DNA from: Alcaligenes aquatilis | GTDB taxonomy: Bacteria > Pseudomonadota > Gammaproteobacteria > Burkholderiales > Burkholderiaceae_B | DNA length: 64,000 nt | NCBI RefSeq assembly: GCF_003076515.1 | Contig: NZ_CP022390.1 | Coordinates: 1,736,001-1,800,000 of the forward strand | Direction of reading: 5' to 3' | In this document: positions 27,501 to 29,553 of the stretch, in pieces | Position numbering within the stretch: position 1 is the stretch's first letter | Layout: each line of letters opens with the position of its first letter | Made by a program: the position numbers and the translations under genes | Notes under the pieces: generated by a model | Seen by the model: only the letters and a program-made list of their open reading frames with translations | Databases searched by the model: none | What the model was told of the DNA's origin: nothing

Positions 27501-27857
27501 GAAGTCACCGAAGCTCCAGCTGAAGCCGTAGAAACAGCCGCGACTCCTGCACAAGCTCAGTCCACAACTGAAGCCCCAGCCGTTCAAGCCACTCCAGTGG
27601 AAACTGCAGCCGCAGAGACTCGCGTAGAGACTCAAACCGCTGCCACAGAGACTCCTGCCGCCGAACAAGCACAGAAGCCCGCTGCCGCTCCTCTGGAAGC
27701 CGTACTGAACGCCGCAGGCATCGAACTGGTGGAAACCGCTCGCTCGGCAACACAGGACGACTATCAGCCTGCACCAGTGCGCCTGGGTCGCCCACGCAAG
27801 CAACGTACTGCAGAAACCGAGAACAGCGAACCGCTGCAACAGGTCGAAACGCAGTAA
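24534..27857 (+). CDS. rne: Ribonuclease E
   Basis: Main endoribonuclease of mRNA decay and rRNA/tRNA maturation, and scaffold of the degradosome. The 1,107-residue protein has an N-terminal catalytic half: S1 domain ([20 protein letters not shown]), DNase I-like domain with metal-binding aspartates ([19 protein letters not shown]) and the zinc-link CPRCTG. From about residue 540 the protein is low-complexity: arginine/glycine-rich patches ([29 protein letters not shown]) likely to bind RNA, then a 230-residue Ala/Glu/Val-rich tail with an internal 79-residue duplication. The very end ([11 protein letters not shown]) is basic again. Confidence 0.96.
27183..27656 (+). repeat. Two-copy 237-bp tandem repeat inside rne
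   Basis: The DNA at 27183-27419 is repeated in frame at 27420-27656. Both copies encode [11 protein letters not shown], then [15 protein letters not shown] and [11 protein letters not shown]. The period is 237 bases (79 codons). Similarity is high at the start of each copy and lower in the last third. Confidence 0.8.
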
Positions 27858-27873
27858 ACAGCAAGACTAAAAA

Positions 27874-27899
27874 CGCCGCCCTCCAGGGCGGCGTTTTTT
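27874..27899 (+). terminator. Intrinsic terminator of rne
   Basis: CGCCGCCCT (27874-27882) pairs perfectly with AGGGCGGCG (27885-27893) around a 2-base gap, followed by six Ts. It lies 16 bases after the rne stop. Confidence 0.9.
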
Positions 27900-28289
27900 A
27901 TGCCTGTCGTATCCACAAAGAGCAATCACCTGAGCCCCTTCTCCTTCCCCTTCTCCCTTCCCGCTAATCCAAGCCACTCCCCCAACAAGCCCCTATCCTC
28001 TTTCGCCCAAACTCCAGCCTAGCCCCACCCGCCTCGGCATCTAGCCCAGCATTAAACCCGCCCTAGTCTTAGCCCTAAGCTCAAACCCACCACTCTTTCA
28101 ACTCCAGTTGCATACAAAGCCGAAGATAGGAATAAAGAGAAAAAACAAAGCTGAAGCCAACAGCGCAGAAAACGTACGCGCATACACAACCGAACGAGGC
28201 ATAGGCCAAAACACAGGCTCAGACACAGGACAGTTGCAGGTGCAGACAGCAGATACAGCCCTCTATTTGAGCCCTCTGCGATATTCCCT
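27900..28289. other. Non-coding stretch with extreme C-over-G bias
   Basis: No gene is supported. Counting by hand, 27901-28080 has about 83 C and 22 G on the top strand, with pyrimidine tracts (27936-27970) and TAGCCC at 28020, 28042 and 28070. From about 28105 the top strand becomes A-rich but remains G-poor. The open frame at 28108-28350 has no ribosome site and no family resemblance. Confidence 0.6.
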
Positions 28290-28525
28290 TTTTCTTGAGG
28301 TAGGGAGTACAGCCCGAATGCGAGTCAGAGCTTTGGCCGCGGGCTATTGAACAATCCAGGGTGCAAACCCAGCGCTGTTCGGGCCAGACGCTTGTACTTG
28401 GTCCGAGGGGACCGAGTACCTGGCGAGTTCACTGGGCGCCTGGGTTGTTCAATAGCCAAGAGCACCCGTGCGCAGCACGGGCCAAGGCCCCGCCCCCAGG
28501 CCGTACTCCCCCCACCCCAAGAAAA
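28290..28525. repeat. Large nested inverted repeat between rne and accD
   Basis: Successive nested pairings share one axis near 28406: 28290-28314 with 28499-28525 (imperfect, 2-base indel), 28330-28338 with 28480-28488, 28342-28360 with 28439-28457 (19 positions, one T-G), 28368-28372 with 28432-28436, 28383-28387 with 28420-28424, and 28394-28404 with 28409-28419 (11 positions, one T-G) closing a GAGG loop. It can be seen as two diverged, head-to-head inverted copies of a ~115-bp sequence or as one long rod-shaped hairpin. No open reading frame fits it. Confidence 0.85.
28465..28481. repeat. Side hairpin within the right arm of the large inverted repeat
   Basis: CCCGTGC (28465-28471) pairs perfectly with GCACGGG (28475-28481) around GCA. 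It has no counterpart in the left arm, so it looks like an insertion in one copy. Its 3' edge competes with the 28480-28488 pairing. Confidence 0.7.
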
Positions 28526-28615
28526 CCAAGCCAATCTCGCCCTGAAGTCTCAACCAAGAGACCAACGTTCCAATAGCACAACCCCCTATGCAAAAAAAAC
28601 TACAGCGGAGTAGGC

Positions 28616-28651
28616 AAAAAAAAACGCCACCTGAACCCAGATGGCGTTTTT
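28616..28651 (-). terminator. Intrinsic terminator after accD
   Basis: On the minus strand AAAACGCCA (28650-28642) pairs with TGGCGTTTT (28629-28621), and the T-run continues to 28616 (nine Ts in total). It lies 24 bases past the accD stop. On the plus strand five Ts follow, so it may work in both directions. Confidence 0.85.
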
Positions 28652-28674
28652 CCCTAAGCGTCAAGCCGTGGCAA

Positions 28675-29553
28675 TCAAGAATGACGCGACACAGCCTCAG
28701 CCGGTTGACGAGTCAACAAAGCCAGCAGCTCCGCCAGTTCACGCTGCAACTCACGACGGTCCACCACCATATCGATCGCGCCCTTCTCCAGCAAGAACTC
28801 GGCACGCTGGAAGCCTTCAGGCAGCTTCTCACGCACAGTCTGCTCAATCACGCGAGGACCGGCAAAGCCAATCAAGGCATTAGGCTCGGCAATCACCACA
28901 TCGCCCATAAAGGCAAAACTGGCCGATACACCACCCATGGTTGGGTCAGTCAAAATACTGATAAACGGCAAACCCGCCTCGGACAGTTCGGCCAGGATAG
29001 CCGTGGTCTTGGCCATCTGCATCAGGGAGAACAAGCTCTCCTGCATACGCGCGCCACCCGAAGCGGCCACACAGATGAAAGGACTACGGTCGGCAATAGC
29101 CGCCTTAACACCACGTGTGAAACGCTCACCCACCACCGACCCCATGGAACCGGCCATGTATTCAAACTCGAAGCAAGCCACCACGGCTGGCACAGACAAA
29201 ATCGTGCCGCTCATGACCACCATCGCCTCAGTTTCGCCCGTTTGTTTGGCTGCCTCGGAAACGCGTTCGGTGTATTTGCGCGAATCGCGGAACTTCAAGG
29301 GGTCCATAGGACGGGTGTTAGAACCAATTTCGGTCTGGCCTTCGGGGTCCAGCAAGGATTTGATCCGGCCACGCGCACCAATACGCATGTGATGACTGCA
29401 CTTGGGGCAAACATTCAAAGTTGCCTGGAGATCTTCCTTGTAGAGCACAGACTCACACGACGGACATTTCACCCACAGCCCCTCGGGAACGCGACGGCTG
29501 CTTTCGGGGTTACGGTTAATTCGCGGCGGGAGTATTTTCTCGATCCAGCTCAT
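28675..29553 (-). CDS. accD: Acetyl-CoA carboxylase carboxyltransferase subunit beta
   Basis: Transfers carboxyl from biotin to acetyl-CoA to make malonyl-CoA; works with AccA. The 292-residue protein has the N-terminal zinc finger (CPSCESVLY and CPKCSHH) and the carboxyltransferase core ([34 protein letters not shown]). The start at 29553 ([12 protein letters not shown]) fits the family; 14 in-frame residues upstream do not. A terminator separates it from trpA, so it probably has its own promoter. Confidence 0.97.

Follow-up and report, generated by a model that had tools for sequence, protein, structure and literature searches.

The gap between rne and accD in Alcaligenes aquatilis contains a nested inverted repeat at 28290..28525 of the window, the 64,000-nucleotide stretch of chromosome analysed here. 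On balance, we take this repeat to be a copy in partial decay, belonging to a dispersed and uncatalogued element that is non-autonomous and is, or once was, mobile. The element is dispersed, has a conserved and covarying fold with a preference for one strand, and pairs divergently with its own copies; a unit made of one such pair has spread to three places in one genome, while at rne–accD the element has been inherited vertically with compensatory change, and at some loci it has been lost. In its conserved part, one strand (the plus strand of the window) folds into a rod, built from a locus-specific outer helix P1, a three-way junction with P7, and helices P2–P6 split by internal loops of conserved sequence; the element occurs singly or as a divergent pair. 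The folded strand, either RNA (favoured) or ssDNA, would be recognised by a putative trans-acting protein, and the unit would enter the T-runs of intrinsic terminators, a presumably harmless spot between convergent genes.

The hairpin and its conserved fold

The repeat lies, as the original prediction had it, between two terminators: that of rne at 27869-27898 (plus strand), which is the other boundary of the intergenic gap, and that of accD at 28620-28651 (minus strand), on the 3′ side of the element. The segment 28280-28535 folds with −124.1 kcal/mol as plus strand (z −6.37) and with −135.4 kcal/mol as minus strand (z −6.42), and for neither strand was any shuffle as good (0/200 each). All parts of the hairpin are given here on the plus strand. 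The outer helix P1 (left arm 28290..28317, right arm 28496..28525) has a locus-specific sequence and is partly mispaired in the window copy. It encloses the conserved core, 28318..28495, which corresponds to positions 1-177 of the covariance model R1 (158.5 bits, E 1.1e-28); the window copy (L001) was itself a member of the R1 training set, so this score is not independent. Within the core, helix P2 (5′ strand 28328..28336, partner 28482-28490) shows covariation in the family, and helix P3 (28344..28354, partner 28445-28455) has double changes in 10/11 pairs across the family. P3 falls within a 19-position arm that had been proposed for 28342-28360 and 28439-28457, and which is indeed present with 95% complementarity. 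Beside P3 stands a short helix (28358..28360, partner 28439-28441) that reads GGG/CCC in most copies and AGG/CCT in the window copy. There follow a conserved internal-loop stretch (28361..28366; consensus GTGCAA / ATGCAA in the conserved columns), helix P4 (28367..28374, partner 28430-28437; two pairs are broken in the window copy), a conserved internal loop (28375..28382; consensus CTGTTTGA) that faces GAGTT at 28425-28429, helix P5 (28383..28387, partner 28420-28424; double changes in 5/5 pairs across the family) and a conserved bulge (28388..28393; consensus ACGCTT). At the tip, helix P6 with its GAGG loop (28394..28419) consists of the 11-position arms expected at 28394-28404 and 28409-28419, and the loop is one base longer in the window copy than in 37 other aligned copies. 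The extra hairpin foreseen in the right arm is also there (P7, 28465..28481; arms 28465-28471 and 28475-28481) and forms the third arm of the three-way junction. Among the wobble pairs that had been pointed out, T332–G486 and T399–G414 (last three digits of the positions) were confirmed and T355–G444 follows from the sequence.

Conservation of this fold was evaluated in an alignment (A1) of 38 Alcaligenes cores, kept from 52 after removal of near-identical ones, in which the core length is 176-178 nt. RNAalifold returned 57 pairs, with double changes in 41; the structure used for scoring has 60 pairs, four basal pairs having been added and one ambiguous pair omitted. Over these 60 pairs, 95.9% of the cells are paired (75.2% in shuffles), double changes occur in 44/60 pairs (30.8 in shuffles), and the covariation score is 0.562, compared with 0.157 for shuffled alignments, none of which reached it (0/500), and with 0.07-0.09 for slid controls. 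A cross-genus alignment has double changes in 53/57 pairs. The unpaired stretches conserved in A1 include TGCAA, CTGTTTGA, ACGCTT and GAGTT, and by eye the positions of a possible pseudoknot, GCAAGC/GCTTGT, hardly vary in the same alignment, with a few copies breaking its pairing. The outer stem P1 varies in sequence by locus and keeps its complementarity. With its conserved ends, the Alcaligenes element measures roughly 250 nt; in a redundant set of 162 Alcaligenes copies, 139 match the 5′ end consensus TGTGAGCC in at least 6/8 letters and 95 match the 3′ end consensus GGCGTCTTCAC in at least 8/11. The usual 5′ word TGTGAGCC is absent from the window copy at its usual distance. Just 3′ of the element, four loci of other families (L109, L263, L266, L267) have a similar AT-rich hairpin (GGTTACTTTTCTTT...AAAGAAAAGT), which was not seen in the Alcaligenes copies looked at.

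Two accounts that dispense with a selected structure were weighed against these results. The overall palindromic look would suit a head-to-head arrangement in which two copies of a ~115-bp element are decaying, one of the two options left by the original prediction. The halves, however, carry different conserved loops, P7 occurs in one half only, and a search of the genome itself, short and weak pieces aside, listed no set of half-length copies; we consider this origin highly improbable. The other option, a structure of one strand under selection, is upheld by the covariation and by the mismatch bias described below. Alternatively, the palindrome could be functionless, its arms being kept complementary by template switching and by gene conversion between arms or copies. 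Two copies, L034+ and L079+, have cores that are 98% identical and P1 arms that are unrelated, which suggests conversion between copies. This account nevertheless leaves unexplained why unpaired loops are conserved, why the core hardly varies in length, why there is a side hairpin, why G.U is in excess on one strand and how the element can be recognised across families, and it appears unlikely.

Since G·U outnumbers A·C at the mismatched positions, the window plus strand is taken to be the folding strand. At the structure pairs of A1, G·U fills 90 cells and A·C 36 (G·U prevails in 26 sequences and A·C in 2); the corresponding counts are 75 and 15 in the cross-genus alignment A3, which was fitted to the model (31 sequences versus 2), 22 and 9 in the P1 pairs, and 105 and 32 in a symmetric hairpin alignment; all these counts include related copies and so are not independent. 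With the conserved loops and the G·U excess as basis, action of the folding strand as RNA is favoured over action as ssDNA; the excess does not prove RNA, because G.T is also the better tolerated mismatch in folded ssDNA. P1 of the window copy, with no G.U and three A.C mismatches, goes against the family trend, a pattern that might fit a decaying copy. Upstream of the element, the promoter-like score equals that of shuffles (8.28 vs 8.23, n 43), and there are no tRNA genes in 16 loci of the same genome. The strand bias also bears on the proposal that the repeat serves the adjacent accD as a 3′-UTR or terminator element, in the form of minus-strand RNA. Such a role would agree with the equally stable minus-strand fold and with the position of the element beyond the accD terminator, but the mismatch bias favours the plus strand and the element stands behind the terminator, not within it; we regard the proposal as very unlikely.

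Copies, pairing and gene context

Dispersed copies, which the original prediction had named as its own test for a mobile element, were found. Searching the A. aquatilis genome with the window stretch gave 12 additional places at E ≤ 0.04, and a core HMM raised this to at least 22 copies, counting one partial copy; they occupy 17 loci, of which five are pairs. With a better copy as query, 9/10 genomes of the genus contain 14-42 matches each, a count that includes fragments; the remaining genome, G002, gave no match with either the sequence query or R1. BLAST at E ≤ 1e-4 placed the element in 6/151 genomes of the bacterial family, all Alcaligenes, a lower bound since five candidates were scored per genome. 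The covariance model R1 reached further, matching 70/268 family genomes and 23/43 genera (the genome and genus of the window included). At E ≤ 0.01 it gave 31 matches, two of them weak, in Alcaligenes SORT26 (the same genome as G007), 18 in Pusillimonas MFBS29, 9 in Paenalcaligenes niemegkensis, 3 in Castellaniella denitrificans and 1 each in Mesopusillimonas and Paracandidimonas; the genomes of two Bordetella, an Achromobacter and an Advenella gave no match. A second model, R2, trained on 50 matches drawn from many genera, matched 21/369 genomes and 17/272 genera of the class (own included) and 7/398 genomes of the phylum, all of the same class or order; the wide searches scored 5-10 candidates per genome, so that these tallies are lower bounds. 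R2 found nothing in nine genomes of Bordetella (2), Achromobacter, Advenella, Burkholderia, Ralstonia, Pandoraea, Undibacterium and Paraburkholderia, a search run without a positive control, and the plasmid and phage collections held no match. P5 and P6 are reduced in several distant members.

Some placements within genomes deserve mention. Eight of the nine matches in P. niemegkensis (G645) lie within about 116 kb of contig C5 (about 305-421 kb). Three copies in G005 (L075-L077; C1 positions 3023920, 3069170 and 3114420) are spaced by exactly 45,250 bases, which suggests that 45 kb has been triplicated in tandem, unless the assembly is at fault. In the A. aquatilis genome, L081 and L084 have more in common than the element: 221 bp of their flank are 98.6% identical and may be an operon boundary that was duplicated. 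Sampled GC skew puts the origin of G000 near 3.0 Mb and its terminus near 1.05 Mb, and copies are sparse near the terminus in G000 and G007, with weak statistics (Rayleigh p 0.02-0.03 over all copies and 0.06-0.08 when each pair counts once).

Copies that lie close together are nearly always divergent, with their 5′ ends facing. This holds for 28/28 Alcaligenes pairs with a gap under 900 nt (orthologues included), for 6/6 pairs in other genera and for three pairs in other families, two of them in one genome; the one exception is a tandem pair, G086:C2. The spacers between paired hairpins differ at most Alcaligenes loci. At L011 (about 1065-1423) and at L060, the spacer between the divergent hairpins contains a long run of GTT/CAA triplets and TTTGGC repeats.

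At least 9/17 loci of the A. aquatilis genome lie between convergent genes, and at 14/17 the 3′ side of the copy faces the 3′ end of a gene, according to heuristic ORF calls read by eye that ignored short ORFs over the element. The misfits to the second rule are L079, L081 and L084, and at L031 one of the two copies fits. Terminators are enriched near the element. In a scan of 43 non-redundant Alcaligenes places, an opposite-strand terminator-like site occurs 3′ of the element at 35/43 (49% in shuffles) and upstream of it at 24/43 (36%); for the element's own strand, the figures are 13/43 downstream (9%) and 12/43 upstream (14%). The contrast between opposite and own strand (35/43 vs 13/43) is largely a matter of base composition, because shuffles of both strands reproduce much of it, and our interpretation is not based on it. 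Unshuffled counts for the opposite strand are 15/37 both 3′ and upstream of the element in other genera, and 19/28 (3′) and 11/28 (upstream) in other families.

This setting bears on a competing explanation, in which the element is a host RNA that each site retains because it is functional there. The hairpin would then stop or destabilise plus-strand read-through from rne before it becomes antisense to accD, probably through the conserved loops, and a divergent pair would guard both directions. The placement between convergent genes, the 3′-facing orientation, the strand bias, the conserved loops and the compensatory change at rne–accD would all be in keeping with it. Insertion at terminators also accounts for the placement, however; the terminator excess extends to the upstream side, and in other genera the two sides are alike. 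The element is also dispensable, as its history shows below. We therefore hold a host RNA to be possible but doubtful, and any insulating role for the host between convergent genes, deduced as it is from placement, is speculative.

Spread, inheritance and decay

Evidence for movement comes from G009, among the genus genomes the most distant carrier of the element. Three of its loci (L048, L057, L107) contain a common unit of ~660-690 bp, comprising the pair and its spacer, with 85-89% identity; within the ~3.2-kb loci no further collinear match was found and the flanks are unrelated. To judge from this comparison, the unit spreads within the genome. It is the sharing of units between unrelated flanks that makes mobility the best reading and lowers the host-insulator role. 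By eye, the units begin with GGTTCTTCGC and end with its inverse GCGAAGAACC, imperfectly in some, and ends of this type are absent from the window copy. Also by eye, T-runs flank 3/4 units of G009 on both sides (L048, L107 and the rne–accD pair), and the unit at rne–accD starts directly after the T-run of the rne terminator; L057 departs from this, with an A-run on the right side only. Insertion into terminator T-runs is therefore the probable route suggested by these boundaries, and the target duplications that had been named as a sign of mobility are suggested by the flanking T-runs, not proven.

In other families, two G417 contigs have a 410-bp pair unit in common (94%), the match reaching the contig ends, and shared sequence around the hairpin covers about 350-390 bp at three G225 loci and 532 bp at two G427 loci. 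No autonomous partner element came to light; the A. aquatilis genome gave no match to PF01797 (Y1_Tnp), which did match 5/14 control genomes. At the two loci followed from genome to genome, sites lacking the element show traces of deletion or no footprint.

One of these two loci is rne–accD. A single hairpin is recognisable there in G000, G001, G003, G004, G007 and G008, and G009 has a divergent pair; an internal deletion has left only the outer parts in G005, and G006 and G002 have no element. Among the six orthologues, 12/60 pairs have changed on both sides. Of the varying pairs, 6 are broken in the window copy, 9 in G001 and 1-2 in each of the other four, and 4 broken pairs are unique to the window copy. 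The folds of the window copy and of G001 are the weakest (−138 and −126, compared with −168 to −188 in the others). The window copy is thus losing pairs and is partly decayed. The mobility and decay of the original prediction hold in another form: not as two head-to-head halves, but as dispersed copies, a pair unit that has moved in G009 and pair loss in the window copy.

At the second locus, L036, five genomes have an intact copy; in G003 an IS110 element has split it, in G001 and G006 a P1 remnant can be made out by eye, and G009 and G002 gave no hit. These losses, like those at rne–accD and the lack of any match in G002, speak against a host RNA that is needed at each site. None of 79 accD loci outside Alcaligenes has an R1 match at E ≤ 0.1; taken with the varied state of the locus within the genus, this indicates that each locus is passed on or lost within the genus and that genera differ in their loci.

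The split copies contain IS110-family transposases (PF01548 + PF02371; two proteins tested), which fall on two sites. At four places in G005 (L070-L072, L078), the junction is GGTCC^GGGGGACC, in the P6 loop; at L073 in G003 it is GGCGAG^TT, within the internal loop that corresponds to 28425..28429 of the window (GAG^TT), and the L351 junction in G003 is identical. Going by these junctions, the hairpin serves two distinct IS110-family elements as a fixed target.

Relation to known elements and significance

MITEs as a class are non-autonomous and repeated, with short inverted ends. The element resembles them in these respects, the inverted ends being those of the G009 units, and differs in having a conserved structured strand inside and in being usually a divergent pair. 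ERIC sequences are ~127 bp long, occur in enterobacteria and have one conserved sequence. Our element likewise lies between genes, is an imperfect palindrome and could fold as RNA, but its arms vary with pairing kept and its loops are conserved. The available part of one source names ERIC and others as intergenic imperfect palindromes (PMC2267715).

In the portion available of its description, BRE is a Betaproteobacterial element of ~90 bp, sometimes tandem, GC-rich, mostly intergenic, dispersed and suspected to be mobile, with small RNAs at one copy (Hot et al, 2011, PMC3110155). Our element is similar in being GC-rich, mostly intergenic, dispersed, suspected of mobility and found in Betaproteobacteria, a comparison by description, not by sequence. 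At E ≤ 0.1, R2 found nothing in Bordetella trematum and B. genomosp. 12, without a positive control, and no BRE report was found for either species.

The closest parallel in way of life is with REP/BIME sequences, which are also dispersed, extragenic and palindromic, with strand-specific features, inverted pairs with a linker and IS110-family hits. REPs are 20-50 nt long with a GTAG-type foot, according to the accessible part of one account (PMC8266576). Similar as its way of life is, the element lacks three of the features by which REPs are defined: its core of 176-178 nt plus P1 makes a ~250-nt multi-helix fold; its 5′ consensus is TGTGAGCC instead of a GTAG-type tetranucleotide at the hairpin foot; and its own genome has no PF01797 match that would stand for a Y1 (RAYT/TnpA-REP) transposase. 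The inverted pairs of REPs it does have, with the one tandem exception. The IS110-family insertions into hairpin copies recall those described for REPs in the part available of PMC1525189.

Covariation together with conserved loops is typical of an ncRNA class of the kind collected in Rfam. No stretch tried had a match above the gathering score in Rfam release 15; over 27600-29000, sub-threshold rows fell on the flanking terminators and none on the element, and 16 loci of distant members gave no credible match. The only sub-threshold row overlapping a core was isrG on L130 (E 0.063), which scored 21.9 bits where the cut-off is 100. No earlier description of the element was found in the literature searched, most subscription papers being outside its reach, and the available parts of PMC3110155, PMC12306157, PMC2267715, PMC8266576 and PMC1525189 contain nothing that matches it. 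The element thus belongs to a known kind, dispersed extragenic palindromes and non-autonomous mobile elements, and departs from it in its size, in its multi-helix fold with a junction and in covariation across the class.

A bolder conjecture, to which we give a rather low probability, combines mobility with a host benefit. A transposable unit carrying one or two large, divergent structured RNAs would be inserted at terminator T-runs in part of the Gammaproteobacteria (GTDB sense), where it would act through its loops (bound, cut by RNase or self-cleaving) as a bidirectional insulator against read-through between convergent genes. If true, this insulator-carrying transposable unit would be a parasite paying its way.

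An element that reaches tens of copies in most of the Alcaligenes genomes analysed, and that shows very strong covariation, was not found in Rfam, and its covariance models are usable for genome annotation. IS110 is the bridge-RNA family, and the element gives a set of fixed target sites for IS110 elements. Its pairs, locus-specific stems, common core and recently spread units offer material on whether dispersed palindromes are parasites, insulators, or both.
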